Virus record (IMG/VR): IMGVR_UViG_3300022221_000026
Location: 1-24,793 of that record
Origin: a virus
Reading direction: 5' to 3' (one strand)
DNA: 24,793 nucleotides
Of this stretch, positions 7,273 through 23,229 are shown in pieces. Position 1 is the first letter of the stretch; each line of letters starts with the position of its first letter. The notes beneath the pieces are model-generated. The model did no database searches, was not told where the DNA came from, and saw only the letters and a program-made list of their open reading frames with translations. Position numbers and translations under genes: made by a program.

Positions 7273-8501
7273 CGATAAAGCAAATCACAGACCACGCCGC
7301 AGCGGCTCAGGCCAGGTTACCAAGTCAGTTTATCGGCGCTACTAAATTACAGGCCTTGATCGGCAAAATAGGTGAACGCGCCCAGGGTATTGAAACCGTC
7401 CTGTTCGACTTGCTGAACAATCGGGCGCTATCAACCGCCACCGGCCTGCAACTCGATAACCTTGGTACCATCCTTGACACGGCCCGGACGGTTGGCGAAA
7501 CAGACGATTCATACCGGGCGCGGCTTTTCTCTGCCACCTCACAACTTCAAAAATCCGGCGAACCTGAACACCTGATTGAAATATTCAATTTCCTTCTCAA
7601 TCCCGATTCAATGATATTGCAAGAAATATATCCAGCCGGTGTTCAGCTGACAGCGCATGACGATACCGATCCAGAATCATTCACCATTGATTCTGATACA
7701 CGCGAAGCCATGGATAATGTAAAAGCCGCTGGCATTGAATTAATTTTGCAAATGGCCACCACTTCAGACTATTTTATGATGGCAGATGAATCAGAAACTG
7801 ATGTGAATGGTGATGGCCCTGATGATGCTTTGCATGGTTTAGGTGATGAAACACTGACAGAAGGCGGGGCGCTGGCAAGGGTTTTTGGATATCCGTTTGA
7901 AATTACTAATATGCTTGCCTATTCAGAGCAGTTTGATCATGCGGACTGGGTAAAGATGGGTACTCCAATAATAACCGCAAATACTGATATAGCGCCTGAT
8001 GGTACATTAACAGCATCTACTATCGAAGATGATGATGCAGTAACAGAACAGGAACGAATAAGACAAGATATATCAAGCTTTGACGCTAAGCAGAATTATA
8101 CGGCATCAATATATATTAAAAAGGATTCAACGCCACGGGCAACGAGATTCGTTGCCTTGAGAATAAAGTATCTTGGATCATCAGACGAACATAACTATTT
8201 AAAATTTGATACTAGCACAGGAGAGTATGATTTAAGCGTTGCCGATACGAGCGCAACCGTTAATATAGTCAGCGATGGTGATTATTGGCGTATAGCTTTA
8301 AGTGCAAAATCACAGGATGCAGCTAACACGCAAATATCATTATGGTTTCATCCCGCTTCTGGTGCAAGCACATCATGGGCTTATTCATCAACGGCCACCG
8401 GATCCGCTGTTATATGGGGCGCACAATTAGTAAAAGGCAGCTACCCTGGCCCATACGTTAAAACAACAAATTCACCCGTAACGAGGTTATTCAATGGCTA
8501 A
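7269..8501 (+). CDS. DUF2612-like baseplate protein fused to a C-terminal jelly-roll domain
   Basis: The first 165 residues resemble DUF2612-type baseplate proteins found after baseplate J: TVLFDLLNNRALSTATGLQL, DNLGTILDTAR, DDSYRARLFS. An acidic Gly/Asp linker follows at 165-205. Residues 213-410 read like a carbohydrate-binding-module jelly roll: NMLAYSEQFDHADWVKMGTP at its start, YTASIYIKKDS, DGDYWRIALSAKS, and WGAQLVKGSYPGPYVKTTNS at its end. Such modules occur on phage spikes and fibres and may bind host sugars. The start overlaps baseplate J (ATGA) and the end overlaps the fibre gene by eight bases. The domain boundary is clear; the ligand is unknown. Confidence 0.72.
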   Translation: MTIKQITDHAAAAQARLPSQFIGATKLQALIGKIGERAQGIETVLFDLLNNRALSTATGLQLDNLGTILDTARTVGETDDSYRARLFSATSQLQKSGEPEHLIEIFNFLLNPDSMILQEIYPAGVQLTAHDDTDPESFTIDSDTREAMDNVKAAGIELILQMATTSDYFMMADESETDVNGDGPDDALHGLGDETLTEGGALARVFGYPFEITNMLAYSEQFDHADWVKMGTPIITANTDIAPDGTLTASTIEDDDAVTEQERIRQDISSFDAKQNYTASIYIKKDSTPRATRFVALRIKYLGSSDEHNYLKFDTSTGEYDLSVADTSATVNIVSDGDYWRIALSAKSQDAANTQISLWFHPASGASTSWAYSSTATGSAVIWGAQLVKGSYPGPYVKTTNSPVTRLFNG

Positions 8502-15529: not shown

Positions 15530-15729
15530 TTATTCAACCTTTCTTCGGAATTTAATGCTTTTATTATCAGGTCACGATCTTTTTCAGTTGTATAGACTTC
15601 GATAGCGTTTCCATGCACTTCAATATTTCCTTTTTTATCCGTGTATTCCATATTTATTCCAAAAGTCGGACCACCATCAATGTTTTCTTCTTCTGAAATA
15701 TCGTCACCTTTACTGAATATTCGCTTCAT
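15526..15729 (-). CDS. Small acidic hypothetical protein
   Basis: The 67-residue product lies between two ATGA overlaps, so it is translationally coupled on both sides. It is acidic at the N-terminus (SKGDDISEEENIDGG), with two likely beta strands (FGINMEYTDKKGNIEVHGN, AIEVYTTEKD) and a short helix. I recognise no family. Its link to the HTH gene may imply a shared regulatory role. Confidence 0.6.
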   Translation of the reverse strand: MKRIFSKGDDISEEENIDGGPTFGINMEYTDKKGNIEVHGNAIEVYTTEKDRDLIIKALNSEERLNK

Positions 15730-15971
15730 TTTTCCATCCTCTCAAAATAAATATCACACGCTTCACGCATTAACCGCGTCAGCCGTGCAAGGTTCTTTTT
15801 GGTGATCGGCTGCAGTTCTTCAGGCACCACAAGCGCGGTACCGTCAGAAGTTTGCGGATCGTCTGTCAGATTATCCAGTCGAACGATCAAGCCTGATTTG
15901 TGCTGTACGCATTGAGTGGACGGATCAACCGTCCACTTTCCGCGCCAGCCCCTGTTGGGGTGGTTTGCCAT
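15726..15971 (-). CDS. Conserved-looking small phage protein
   Basis: The 81-residue product starts MANHPNRGWRGKWTVDP, a tryptophan-rich segment seen in small phage and plasmid proteins, followed by a helical C-terminus (NLARLTRLMREACDIYFERM). No catalytic or metal-binding motif is visible. AAGGAAAC stands just upstream of the ATG at 15971. Its stop overlaps the next gene by four bases. Function unknown. Confidence 0.6.
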   Translation of the reverse strand: MANHPNRGWRGKWTVDPSTQCVQHKSGLIVRLDNLTDDPQTSDGTALVVPEELQPITKKNLARLTRLMREACDIYFERMEK

Positions 15972-15973
15972 AT

Positions 15974-16159
15974 TTAGTTTCCTTGTTCGATTTTCCCAAT
16001 TAAAACACCTAGGTATTCAGTATTTTCTATTTTCACTGAGAACTGATAAAAATCATCAGGACGCGGTTCCATTTCAAAATACATACTGGATTGGATTAAG
16101 TTATTTGCAACACGCTTTGCAGATTCAGCGCCTTCGATTGTTCCGTGTGTAAGTTTCAT
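15974..16159 (-). CDS. Small hypothetical protein behind hairpin copy A
   Basis: The 61-residue product starts at ATG 16159, which has an AAGGGG eight bases upstream; longer in-frame starts would run back through the conserved hairpin. The sequence (MKLTHGTIEGAESAKRVANN, then FYQFSVKIENTEYLGVLI) looks alpha/beta and has no recognised motif. It is one of three genes in this run that carry the same GC-rich hairpin 13-14 nt before the start codon. Two bases separate its stop from the next gene. Confidence 0.6.
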   Translation of the reverse strand: MKLTHGTIEGAESAKRVANNLIQSSMYFEMEPRPDDFYQFSVKIENTEYLGVLIGKIEQGN

Positions 16160-16173
16160 TTTGTGTACCCCTT

Positions 16174-16192
16174 GCCCCTGGTATCGAGGCGC
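16174..16192 (-). promoter_or_regulatory. GC-rich hairpin, copy A of a repeated leader element
   Basis: On the minus strand GCGCCTC and CAGGGGC flank a short centre. GCCTC and GGGGC can pair (one G-U) around a seven-base loop. Fourteen bases separate it from the ATG at 16159, with an AAGGGG in between. Copies B (16718-16735) and C (17234-17254) have the same arms but different loops. Confidence 0.6.
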
Positions 16193-16207
16193 ATATATTT
16201 TGATTAA

Positions 16208-16213
16208 ATTATA
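16208..16213 (-). promoter_or_regulatory. Possible -10 box before hairpin A
   Basis: TATAAT lies on the minus strand, inside the end of the preceding gene and just upstream of hairpin A. The best -35 match (TTGAAA) is 19 bases away, which is long. It is supported mainly by analogy with the promoter before hairpin C. Confidence 0.3.
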
Positions 16214-16481
16214 ACAAAGCAAGAACAGCCTTTTTCAACTCATTCCTTGCTTCAGGTCTGGTGGTGTAAATAGCATGAAATTGATCCATCTTCTTGAAAG
16301 CGTGCACAGCATAAGCCTGGATCATATCCGTTTGATCATCGGCGTCCATTTTCAGATAGGTTTGAACTGAATTATCTTGTTGAAGGCTATTAATTATTGA
16401 GTTTGCCAAACATTTCAGATCGTGGACATTCACACCAAATTGTTCTGATAATTTCTGCATTTCGGTATCTAGCGTATTCAT
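16209..16481 (-). CDS. Small helical hypothetical protein
   Basis: Starting at ATG 16481 the product is 90 residues and almost entirely helical (NTLDTEMQKLSEQFGVNVHD, then ADDQTDMIQAYAVHAFKKMD). AAGGCGG precedes this ATG at good spacing. An upstream in-frame ATG at 16547 would overlap the preceding gene by 56 bases and has no clear ribosome-binding site. No motif recognised. The arrangement, ten bases after the previous stop, fits the same transcript. Confidence 0.55.
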   Translation of the reverse strand: MNTLDTEMQKLSEQFGVNVHDLKCLANSIINSLQQDNSVQTYLKMDADDQTDMIQAYAVHAFKKMDQFHAIYTTRPEARNELKKAVLALL

Positions 16482-16491
16482 GATATCCGCC

Positions 16492-16704
16492 TTATGCTCT
16501 GAAAATGGTAGCCATTGAATACCGGCCATCCGGGTAAATGAATTCACCTTGATTATTGGTGTGTATTTTACAACGCTTTTCAGTCCCGTCTTCGTTAATA
16601 GTAACTGTTTTGGCAGTACGCTTGATCACGGTGGCTTCAAAAATACAGTCATGATTGCAGATTGACCGGGCTGTGAGTTTTTGACCATTTGTAAAAGTTT
16701 TCAT
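16492..16704 (-). CDS. Small conserved-looking protein behind hairpin copy B
   Basis: The 70-residue product reads MKTFTNGQKLTARSICNHDC, FEATVIKRTAKTVTI, KRCKIHTN and IYPDGRYSMATIFRA. This SH3-like beta pattern with CNHDC recurs in small plasmid and phage proteins of unknown function. ATG 16704 is preferred over 16710 because AAGGA then sits at normal distance and the hairpin lies 13 nt upstream, as in the other two copies. It might bind nucleic acid, but no direct evidence exists. Confidence 0.62.
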   Translation of the reverse strand: MKTFTNGQKLTARSICNHDCIFEATVIKRTAKTVTINEDGTEKRCKIHTNNQGEFIYPDGRYSMATIFRA

Positions 16705-16717
16705 TTTCATCTTCCTT

Positions 16718-16735
16718 GCCCCTGTACCGAGGCGC
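16718..16735 (-). promoter_or_regulatory. GC-rich hairpin, copy B of the repeated leader element
   Basis: The minus-strand sequence is GCGCCTCGGTACAGGGGC: same arms as copies A and C with the shortest loop (six bases between GCCTC and GGGGC). It lies 13 nt before ATG 16704, followed directly by AAGGAAG. Confidence 0.6.
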
Positions 16736-16751
16736 GTAATTATTAAAGGTT

Positions 16752-16771
16752 CCCCAGCCTTGCGGCTGGGG
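16752..16771 (-). terminator. Strong 8-bp hairpin between two early genes
   Basis: CCCCAGCC and GGCTGGGG form a perfect eight-base-pair stem with a four-base loop, nine bases after the stop of the DUF2958-like gene. On the minus strand the following bases are AACCTTTAATAATTA, AT-rich but without a clean U-run, so it may be a partial terminator or an RNA-stability/attenuation structure. Confidence 0.55.
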
Positions 16772-16779
16772 TGTTGCGG

Positions 16780-17220
16780 TTATTTGCTGGCTTTAATCTC
16801 GGCCAGTGTTTTTGGTGTGAAGTGCATATCCAGTTCAATATTATTCAGAATTAATTCCTGAATGGAAATGTACCCAAGTTCACCACCATATCCGAGATCC
16901 GCCATTCCGAAGGCTTGGATTTGGCCTTCACCTTCTGGATCACAATCTTTTTCAGTTATGTACCAATCCATATTGCCGCGGAAGTAATGCAGGAACACAA
17001 CAGCCTGTTTGCCTTTCCCGTCCTGTTCGTAAGTTTCCGGCATATTGCTCACCAAGTCGGCCATTTCTACTGCCTTATCAAAGAAATATTGTTTTTCTTC
17101 ACCCTGGCAACCTTCACAGATAGCGGATAATTGAGATTGGCCGATAAACTGGCGAAGGGTTTGAAGTGCTGAAATGGCGTCTGATTTGGTGTTACGAACT
17201 TTCTTGATTGATTTAGTCAT
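16780..17220 (-). CDS. DUF2958-like early protein
   Basis: The 146-residue product has a helical N-terminal part with a CEGCQGEEKQYFFDKAVEMA segment, then VVFLHYFRGNMDWYITEKD and FGMADLGYGGELGYISIQEL with HFTPKTLAEI at the end. The second half matches the DUF2958 pattern common in plasmids and phages, function unknown. ATG 17220 is chosen because GGAG lies eight bases upstream; extending to 17307 would translate through the hairpin, the operator and the promoter. It is the first gene after the promoter at 17284-17312 and carries hairpin copy C. Confidence 0.68.
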   Translation of the reverse strand: MTKSIKKVRNTKSDAISALQTLRQFIGQSQLSAICEGCQGEEKQYFFDKAVEMADLVSNMPETYEQDGKGKQAVVFLHYFRGNMDWYITEKDCDPEGEGQIQAFGMADLGYGGELGYISIQELILNNIELDMHFTPKTLAEIKASK

Positions 17221-17233
17221 TCTTGTTTCTCCA

Positions 17234-17254
17234 GCCCCTGATAACCCGAGGCGC
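17234..17254 (-). promoter_or_regulatory. GC-rich hairpin, copy C of the repeated leader element
   Basis: The minus strand has GCGCCTC, a seven-base centre, then CAGGGGC. GCCTC/GGGGC can pair around a nine-base loop. It lies 13 nt before ATG 17220. It has the largest loop of the three copies, while arms and distance are kept. Confidence 0.6.
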
Positions 17255-17259
17255 GGTTC

Positions 17260-17369: not shown

Positions 17370-19070
17370 TCACGGAATTAATGGCACTTCGGTTAAATAA
17401 GTACCGAATCCCACCCCCGCTACCATATTTACTGAACCCCCTGATAGCCTAGCTATCATGGGGGCATATTCAGCTTTAATTTCAGCTACTAAGCACCCCT
17501 GTTCGGCGTCCTGCCTCAATACGATAGAATCCCCGGTAATTGCTTTGATCCGCTCCCGTGCGGCCGTTATATCCGTACTCAGGGCGATATCAAGCTGTTC
17601 AACAAAGGTCAGAAACAATTCACCAGCATTGGGCAAAATAGCCTGTAGTTTAGTTTGGCTATGGGTAAGGCCTTCGAGCTTGGTAATAATATCGGCTTTC
17701 CGGCCTTCGGCATCTGCCAGGGCATCGAGTAGGGCGCTTGAATGGCCCTGACGTACCGCGTCAACCAAGTTCCGGATCTCCTTATCCAGTTTGGTTGCCT
17801 CTGATTTTAGTCGGTTCAGTTCCAGCCCTGCACCGGCACGGGCTTCTTTCATAACCCGGATCGCTTCTTTACGAAAGGCGTCAAGCGCATCCGGGTGTAA
17901 CAGTTCATCCCGGATCACGGCCAGCAACCGTTCTTCGACAATTTTACGAGATACCCGCATTTCATTCTCGCACGCATCCGGGCCACCCCCGGCGCGAGAA
18001 GAACAGCCGTATTTGTAATGGCTGATCATGATGTAATTTGCCCCGCAGTCTTTACACTTGAGCAGGGAAGAAAACAGGAATTTGGGACCCCGGCCGGTCC
18101 TGGCGTTTTTGTGTAGTGCATCCCGGATATGCTGGCTGTTTTCGTGGACCTGCTTTTGACGGGCTTTGGCGCGATCCCATAGTGGCTTATCAATGATCTG
18201 CAGTTCAGGCAATTCAGCGGTGATCCATTCTGATTCAGGCCGTTCCCGTCTTTCCTTGCGGCCCGTGCGGCCGGTCTTGTTTTTGACTGACTGCGGGACT
18301 TTGATCCACTGGCTTTTATTCCAAACATAAATCCCGTTATAGATTTTATTATTCAGGATCCCTGTGCCTTTTTGCTGGTGGCCGTATATCGAGGATTGCC
18401 GCCAGGTTCGGTTTCGTGGTGAAGGTATGCCCAGGGCGTTCAATTCTTTCGCAATGGCAATGATCGAATATCCAGAAGCAAACTTTTCAAAAATGAAGAT
18501 TACCCACTTGGCCTGTTCTGGATCAATCTCGAGTCCAGCCGGTTTGAATTCGGGCTTGCCGTTCTTGCCGACTGTTTCAGCGTACACAGATCGATACCCG
18601 TAAATCTTTCCCCCGGCGTGCAGGCCTTTTTCAACCAGACCAGCCATACTGTTATGTGTTTTTTTGGACACGAACCGAATGAAGTCTTCATTCTGTGCGC
18701 CTTTGACCGCCAGTAATAATTCATATCCTTCACGCCGAGTATCGATACCATCATTCACACCAACAATATGGATCCCCAGGTACTTTAAAGTTTCAACGGC
18801 TTGGTACTGTTCGCCCATATCGCGCCATAACCGGGATATTTCATCGACCACGATAATATCAAACAGGCGCTTTTCAGCATCGTTAATCATTTGACGATAA
18901 TCAGGGCGATCTGAATACTGGCCGGACATGGCCGGATCACTGTATTTTTTAACTAAGCGGAATTTTTCACTGGCAACACGCTTATTGTTTACGCGATCCT
19001 GATCGGTGATGGACGTTAGATCCTGGTTGTCGGTTGAATACCGGGTATATGTGGCTGCGCGTAGTATCAT
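17370..19070 (-). CDS. Large serine recombinase (phage integrase)
   Basis: The 566-residue protein has the full large serine recombinase layout. The catalytic domain has nucleophile S12 (ATYTRYSTDNQ) with R10, and further conserved arginines at R80 and R83 (VVDEISRLWRD). A recombinase domain follows at about 155-300 (GGKIYGYRSV, AIAKELNALGIPSPR). The zinc ribbon has C339, C342, C356 and C367, and a coiled coil spans about 395-480. It would catalyse attP x attB integration; excision normally needs a directionality factor, not recognised here. It ends 57 bases before the promoter region of the next genes. It is flanked by phage genes on both sides, with no att site visible. Confidence 0.9.
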   Translation of the reverse strand: MILRAATYTRYSTDNQDLTSITDQDRVNNKRVASEKFRLVKKYSDPAMSGQYSDRPDYRQMINDAEKRLFDIIVVDEISRLWRDMGEQYQAVETLKYLGIHIVGVNDGIDTRREGYELLLAVKGAQNEDFIRFVSKKTHNSMAGLVEKGLHAGGKIYGYRSVYAETVGKNGKPEFKPAGLEIDPEQAKWVIFIFEKFASGYSIIAIAKELNALGIPSPRNRTWRQSSIYGHQQKGTGILNNKIYNGIYVWNKSQWIKVPQSVKNKTGRTGRKERRERPESEWITAELPELQIIDKPLWDRAKARQKQVHENSQHIRDALHKNARTGRGPKFLFSSLLKCKDCGANYIMISHYKYGCSSRAGGGPDACENEMRVSRKIVEERLLAVIRDELLHPDALDAFRKEAIRVMKEARAGAGLELNRLKSEATKLDKEIRNLVDAVRQGHSSALLDALADAEGRKADIITKLEGLTHSQTKLQAILPNAGELFLTFVEQLDIALSTDITAARERIKAITGDSIVLRQDAEQGCLVAEIKAEYAPMIARLSGGSVNMVAGVGFGTYLTEVPLIP

Positions 19071-22769: not shown

Positions 22770-22780
22770 TAATCACCTCC
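22770..22780 (-). promoter_or_regulatory. Unusually strong ribosome-binding site
   Basis: The minus strand reads AGGAGGTGATT, almost the full anti-Shine-Dalgarno complement, placed at ideal distance before ATG 22767. It overlaps the ssb stop region. Most other genes in the run have only four- to six-base matches. Confidence 0.7.
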
Positions 22781-23229
22781 TAGAAGGGAATATCATCATC
22801 GAAATCACCGGCCGGCATCATATCTGGTTCACTGTGTGACTGATTAACTGGCTGACTTGCCTGTGATTGATTGTTGTTCTGTGCCGGTACCCCAGTCCGG
22901 CTGTCGAGCATTTGAAGTTCACCACCAACAATTTCTGTTGTATAGCGGTCCTGTCCCTGGTTGTCCTGCCATTTCCGGGTTTGAAGTTTTCCTTCAATGT
23001 AAACCTTTGAGCCTTTTTTCAGGTATTCACCAGCGATTTCAGCCAGGCGCCGGAACAGGATTACACGATGCCATTCTGTTTTTTCCTGTTGTTCACCTGT
23101 GTTCTTATCCTTCCAGCTTTCGGAAGTGGCAATAGCGAGATTGGCAACCGCTCCACCATTGGGCATGTAACGCAATTCAACATTACGCCCTAATCGACCA
23201 ACTAAAATGACTTTATTAATTCCGCGCAT
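22780..23229 (-). CDS. ssb: Single-stranded DNA-binding protein
   Basis: The 149-residue protein is a standard bacterial-type SSB. Its OB-fold covers residues of about 1-110 ([20 protein letters not shown], then [20 protein letters not shown] and [13 protein letters not shown]). A Gln/Ser-rich linker follows, and the acidic tail DFDDDIPF recruits replication and repair partners. It would protect single-stranded DNA during phage replication as a tetramer. The start overlaps the end of the HNH gene by 14 bases. A phage-specific copy suggests replication at least partly independent of host SSB. Confidence 0.95.

Follow-up and report, generated by a model that had tools for sequence, protein, structure and literature searches.

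A candidate translational operator family of phages: pseudoknot elements before start codons and their NHPNR-armed companion proteins

Elements and genes in the window

The window analysed here comprises positions 1-24,793 of the viral record IMGVR_UViG_3300022221_000026 (24,793 nucleotides, nt), and its minus strand bears an operon in which three copies of a small GC-rich element precede three short genes. Read on that strand, the order is element A, a DUF2958 gene, element B, a 70-residue gene with an overlapping 112-residue open reading frame (ORF), element C, a 61-residue gene and an ORF whose product starts with a peptide arm designated NHPNR (Table 1). The pattern GCGCCTCG-N(3-6)-CAGGGGC matches the window exactly three times, always on the minus strand (16174-16192, 16718-16735 and 17234-17254), whereas the number expected from 100 dinucleotide shuffles is 0. 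A family covariance model of 75 members, which include the three window copies, scored elements A, B and C at 48.0, 37.3 and 32.6 bits, respectively, and no fourth element was found in the window above 7.6 bits, the next best score. The three copies are thus real, far beyond chance, and by comparison of sequences they belong to a wider family.

Shine-Dalgarno (SD)-like AAGGGG, AAGG and GGAG sequences lie between the elements and the start codons, at element-to-start distances of 14, 13 and 13 nt; the 13-nt distance of the middle gene counts to the second of two in-frame ATGs. An earlier reading of this DNA without database searches (the sequence-only reading) had given the same places and distances with a ribosome-binding site in between, and both the pattern search and the covariance model bore it out. 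When folded one by one, the window copies gave merely a 5-bp hairpin of average stability (z -0.6 to -1.1). Because single-sequence folding was unremarkable, the significance of the structure was taken from comparison.

Table 1. Elements and genes of the minus-strand operon in the window.
Feature	Position	Strand	Description
Predicted pseudoknot element A	17234..17258	-	S1 AACC 17258-17255 / L1 GC / S2 GCCTC 17252-17248 / L2 G / S1' GGTT 17246-17243 / L3 ATCA / S2' GGGGC 17238-17234
First element-headed gene	16780..17220	-	146 aa, DUF2958 domain (PF11171), phrog_5203; ATG 13 nt behind element A
Predicted pseudoknot element B	16718..16738	-	S1 TAC / GC / GCCTC / G / GTA / CA / GGGGC
Second element-headed gene	16492..16704	-	70 aa; start also possible at 16710
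112-aa ORF, same operon	16209..16547	-	phrog_26169 (unknown function); without an element of its own
Predicted pseudoknot element C	16174..16195	-	S1 TAT / GC / GCCTC / G / ATA / CCA / GGGGC
Third element-headed gene	15974..16159	-	61 aa
NHPNR-armed protein	15726..15971	-	81 aa (MANHPNRGWRGKWTVD...), begins 2 nt after the third gene; candidate partner acting in trans

Predicted pseudoknot and its covariation

IMG/VR was scanned for the element with one loose pattern and one stricter pattern that demanded a start codon, and all counts below are among the matches listed. The loose scans returned mostly chance matches in GC-rich DNA, and only copies followed by an SD and a start codon were used. 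From the comparison, the element is predicted to be an H-type pseudoknot of the form S1-GC-S2-G-S1'-n(0-6)CA-S2'-SD, in which stem 2 (S2) pairs GCCUC with GGGGC. Stem 1 (S1) consists of the letters just 5' of GCGCCTCG, paired with those just 3' of it, and occurs as CCG/CGG, CTG/CAG, GAC/GTC, CGC/GCG and AACC/GGTT, and in the window also as TAT/ATA and TAC/GTA. Among 98 exact-core copies, 55 have a stem 1 of at least 3 bp, whereas 10,000 permutations gave 11.6 such copies on average and never more than 23. With the named pseudoknot, 96.3% of the cells in a 75-member alignment (A2) are paired, compared with 82.5 ± 0.9% after shuffling and at most 62% when the structure is slid along the alignment. 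Double-sided changes occupy 59 cells in the 75-member alignment, against 15.8 expected.

Because stem 2 could not vary in samples picked by its own letters, a further scan was run with these letters left free. Full pairing was found in 41 of its 78 matches, against 0.6 expected for random letters, a value that assumes equal base use and is raised somewhat by GC-rich DNA. The compensated variants are UCCCC/GGGGA, GCACC/GGUGU, CACCC/GGGUG, GCCCC/GGGGC and GCCUC/GAGGC; the contig L453 has two copies that differ in the first pair of stem 2, U-A versus A-U. While stem 2 changes with compensation, the loop letters GC, G and CA are invariant. Since compensatory changes occur in both stems, the comparison argues for a site that acts at the RNA level, and the control at the ribosome-binding site proposed earlier gains support from the same changes.

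The sequence-only reading had described hairpins with the arms GCGCCTC and CAGGGGC and a free loop. The arms are present, but pairing between them is confined to GCCTC/GGGGC. The supposed free loop holds the 3' strand of stem 1, which covaries with a flank that had been left out; the structure is therefore better read as a pseudoknot, and a second stem (TAT/ATA, TAC/GTA and AACC/GGTT in the window) had been missed. A simple hairpin was ruled out, as it leaves the covarying stem 1 unexplained. The check that had been suggested, compensation of changes in the arms, came out in favour of the element: changes in the stems are compensated, the core is kept before approximately 100 unrelated genes, and the contrary outcome did not occur. 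An alternative stem 2 register, GCGCCU/AGGGGC, was disfavoured, because the A of CAGGGGC becomes T, G or C with its would-be partner unchanged. A terminator was also ruled out, as no U-run follows the element.

None of 4227 Rfam models, known riboswitches and cis-regulatory families included, reached its gathering score, in line with the earlier statement that no described element with this sequence was known. No description of the element was found by literature searches on NHPNR, STAXI and phage pseudoknots.

Distribution of the element and the genes behind it

More than 100 relatives of the window elements were found in IMG/VR. At least about 85 contigs carry the core followed immediately by an SD and then by an ATG, in most cases 11-13 nt further on, which is also the modal start-codon distance of the family. 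The element ends 0-3 nt before the SD, which stays unpaired in the pseudoknot. Viral records of 7-105 kb hold one to four copies each, and copies inside one operon (L310) lie approximately 250 nt apart. The element is spread over many unrelated mobile elements; most relatives are metagenomic contigs without hosts, and one class, represented by 369 genomes, yielded just one convincing copy. No element was found in phiHAP-1 or in the examined stretch of phage Sirocco. Short blastn, and tblastn of NHPNR proteins, gave no named phage relative beyond one helix-turn-helix (HTH) protein without the arm, and no plasmid relative of the DUF6948 class was found. In the record IMGVR_UViG_3300050016_000100 (L262, L376), the element and an NHPNR ORF occur twice on opposite strands, approximately 2 kb apart, as an inverted duplication.

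The genes headed by elements are short and diverse (97 proteins with a mean column identity of 5% in their alignment). Among these proteins, DUF6948 was assigned by Pfam in seven and RadC in three, and DUF932, DUF7666, pentapeptide repeats, the ArdC N-domain and DUF2958 (the first gene of the window) once each. Families found in element operons include antirestriction/ArdC-N, RadC and DUF932. The element-headed genes share no common metabolic theme, and they do not encode single-stranded DNA-binding protein (SSB). The idea that one site is common to several genes, a regulon, is supported by this distribution.

Of the window genes, the first had been called DUF2958-like, which holds (Pfam E 1.5e-6, above the cut-off). 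The second had been called SH3-like, which Pfam does not support, and it has no significant family match in Pfam or PHROG; no match to either was found for the third. The DUF2958 protein shares 54% identity with a portion of a 3.7-kb gene of Xanthomonas phage Rb1 (L335, 54459-54875). Because that gene is annotated as an internal head protein, the DUF2958 domain may be virion-associated in Rb1. A large serine recombinase (Resolvase, Recombinase and zinc ribbon) lies directly upstream of the operon (17370-19070, minus strand), and an SSB lies further on (22780-23229, minus strand). Because of these neighbours, the region is probably the early/lysogeny region of a temperate phage.

Two observations concern the surroundings of elements elsewhere. 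Near an element-bearing operon, positions 990-1038 of L102 resemble a type I hammerhead (28.4 bits against a gathering score of 34, E 0.0019). Around an element-headed NHPNR ORF in L333 (356-1995), there are six tRNA-like matches, two of them tRNA-Sec-like.

NHPNR-armed proteins near the elements

Near the elements, one protein per mobile element, usually exactly one, starts with M-x-N-H-P-N-R-S. Exactly one such start is present in 52 of 86 element loci, compared with 5 of 127 other viral loci (Fisher p 8e-21); the latter are contigs fetched by chance matches rather than a random draw, and four of the five were later shown to carry an element that the filter had missed. With a relaxed arm, 65 of the 86 loci have one NHPNR-like ORF downstream on the same strand within 2.6 kb. 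The gene typically lies 160-600 nt behind the element-headed start, behind small ORFs. For an independent sample, NHPNR ORFs were selected in IMG/VR solely by the codons for the peptide; of these 71 ORFs, 62 are preceded by an element on their own strand. Four of the remaining nine begin less than 400 nt from a contig edge. Sixty-two NHPNR ORFs were also checked for exact cores, and no core was on the opposite strand.

The codons of the arm vary at synonymous positions (CAC/CAT, all four CCN and all four CGN), and for this reason it is as a peptide, rather than as RNA, that the arm is conserved. An alignment of 32 armed proteins (A5) is near-invariant in the arm only, and the remainder differs from phage to phage, the arm being fused to unrelated domains. 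With its six fixed residues and a basic tail that appears disordered, the arm is reminiscent of the general kind of arginine-rich arm that binds RNA.

The armed protein of the window, which the sequence-only reading had overlooked as a likely partner, falls into a small class, NHPNRxWRxRWxVD, together with proteins of L254, L278 and L327, and not into the HTH class described below. Its predicted structure (mean predicted local distance difference test score, pLDDT, of 78, from four sequences) has no match in the PDB. A back-translation search of IMG/VR returned no relative of it, although relatives are present in L254, L278 and L327. In L278, it is the protein of this class that bears the arm, and the Aca10-like neighbour is armless, as if each set of elements needed one armed protein.

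Aca10-like class and the Dyella plasmid

Among the armed classes, the most frequent is a small HTH protein similar to Aca10, the repressor of the acrIC7-acrIC6-aca10 operon, which binds inverted repeats in the promoter (PMC9410881). The predicted model of this class is confident except in the arm (residues 1-10, pLDDT approximately 52). Its closest solved relative is Aca10 (PDB 7XI5), with a Foldseek E of 2e-5, 62% identity over 55 residues and a root-mean-square deviation of 0.5; a profile search gave E 1.6e-26. The Aca10 chain has no NHPNR arm.

A further twelve HTH homologues, of which eleven lie on named plasmids and one belongs to phage Sirocco, are armless and have no element in their surroundings. 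The only armed homologue of the 13 (WP_311842658.1, Dyella sp. BiH032 plasmid p2) is also the only one with elements: p2 has five exact cores on one strand and none on the other, each directly before an annotated start codon, and a single NHPNR protein. The genes behind them encode a VbhA-family antitoxin, an LPD29-domain protein, an antirestriction protein, a DUF4942 protein and a hypothetical protein next to ssb. Because the twelve armless homologues lack the element and the armed one of p2 has five, arm and element go together regardless of the HTH domain.

On Klebsiella pneumoniae IncFIA/IncFII/IncR plasmids (L431, L436, L440), an armless Aca10-like HTH gene lies directly behind a hypothetical gene of approximately 148 aa, near umuD and parM/stbA and without the RNA element. 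Judged by its arrangement, this pair looks like an acr-aca pair on clinical plasmids.

Discussion

We consider it probable that the elements are translational operators read by the NHPNR arm, with a regulon composed partly of anti-defence genes. In such a mechanism, the unbound pseudoknot would leave the SD unpaired. The knot abuts the SD, the docking place of the 30S subunit, and the arm M-x-NHPNR(S/K/R) of a phage- or plasmid-encoded protein would bind and stabilise it. The stabilised knot would then prevent the 30S subunit from docking at the start site, an effect known from other operators; that it assists the subunit instead is less likely. Several small early or anti-defence genes would share the operator, and the armed protein, made from the same operon, would exert autogenous control, which fits because it is the last or a nearby gene of that operon. 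Binding of the RNA by the arm, repression as the sign of control and autogenous feedback are what we infer from the arrangement, which looks like an undescribed switch setting the output of partly anti-defence proteins. In a wider form that we offer tentatively and find slightly doubtful as a whole, NHPNR would be a portable peptide with RNA-binding activity, attached by phages and plasmids to proteins of unrelated kinds, Aca10-type anti-CRISPR repressors included. The pseudoknot would be its operator, the two parts would make up a translational regulon of early anti-defence genes that is widespread in mobile elements, and the operator sequence could help to find new anti-CRISPR and antirestriction genes.

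Several observations weigh against the arm as the reader of the elements. Even with the relaxed motif, 21 of the 86 element loci have no NHPNR-like ORF (some of these loci are truncated), and a 39-kb record with four copies (L018) has no strict NHPNR match. Stem 1 has only 2 bp in many copies, and no canonical NHPNR lies near the copies whose stem 2 is altered. As the armed proteins share the arm alone, the partnership is possibly indirect, through a host factor that recognises both. In L453, where the elements have altered stem 2 (UCCCC/GGGGA and ACCCC/GGGGT), an ORF (MTYGLTHANRSKHVVRLCAWCQ...) with the arm-like THANRSK lies approximately 780 nt behind the element at 7826, possibly a co-change of peptide and RNA in one case.

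The absence of an NHPNR ORF from about a quarter of the element loci would also suit a riboswitch-like or host-factor-sensing pseudoknot, in which the loops GC, G and CA and stem 2 are recognised by a metabolite or by an RNA-binding protein of the host, and the NHPNR protein is a passenger of the operon. Fixed loops beside a stem that changes with compensation are aptamer-like. However, the company of arm and element (62 of 71 NHPNR ORFs, and none of the armless HTH homologues) is too tight and too arm-specific for a passenger, and the lack of a metabolic theme speaks against a metabolite; we regard this explanation as unlikely. Still less probable is a role independent of any trans factor, in which a 5' knot shields or positions the ribosome-binding site and so acts as a constitutive enhancer of translation or as a stabiliser of the mRNA end. 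It would account for an element that always stands directly before an unpaired SD and heads many unrelated genes, but a plain stabiliser requires neither an invariant core of approximately 14 letters nor a companion peptide, and only one to four genes per phage record carry the element. A DNA-level site, such as a repressor operator or promoter part that lies at the start codon by chance, is very improbable: the armed proteins do include HTH DNA binders related to Aca10, but the distance to start codon and SD is fixed while loop lengths vary, two interlocked stems show pseudoknot-type compensation, and copies recur within operons (L310).

Among known systems, the pseudoknot of T4 gene 32 mRNA is likewise a phage H-type pseudoknot in an mRNA leader, bound by the protein of its own gene, which stops translation. 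It acts from further upstream (PMC3014915), 67 nt before the start codon, where it nucleates cooperative binding of gp32, whereas the knot described here abuts the SD. The present family also differs in its invariant core, in standing before many unrelated genes, none of them SSB genes, and in having no relation to gp32. The SAS/ESAS elements of cluster K mycobacteriophages (PMC3203893) resemble it as conserved elements directly before several phage start codons with a proposed role in translation initiation. They are GGGATAGGAGCCC-type 13-bp repeats at the ribosome-binding site, with an unlike consensus and in other hosts; according to their authors, changes in ESAS do not support RNA pairing (PMC3203893), in contrast to those in the present family. 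The STAXI RNA motif (RF01728; PMC2864571) is a small pseudoknot near DNA-processing and antirestriction genes. STAXI occurs in enterobacteria as two or more tandem repeats with frequent UUCG loops, unlike the single copies at start codons, hundreds of nt apart, found here, and the RF01728 model gave no match to the family.

The operons of Aca10 and other acr-aca systems (PDB 7XI5; PMC9410881, PMC9410906) are similar in that the HTH class of NHPNR proteins is homologous and likewise stands behind small ORFs in one operon. Aca10 and its plasmid homologues differ by lacking the arm, and the homologues also by lacking the RNA element nearby; the described role of Aca10 is transcriptional repression through DNA binding. 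Aca2 of phage ZF40 is reportedly an RNA- and DNA-binding HTH repressor of an acr operon that also represses translation through RNA structures at the ribosome-binding site. It belongs to a different HTH family from the armed class, and we know of no NHPNR arm or H-type pseudoknot family associated with it.

Protein-controlled pseudoknot operators are rare in phages, and the element described here recurs before dozens of unrelated genes, and its candidate partner is recognised by a short arm at the N-terminus. If the proposed reading is true, it would add an RNA layer to operons of the acr-aca type. The small genes behind the elements (DUF2958, DUF6948, DUF4942, LPD29 and many orphans) would then belong to a single class, early or anti-defence in role and recognisable from sequence.
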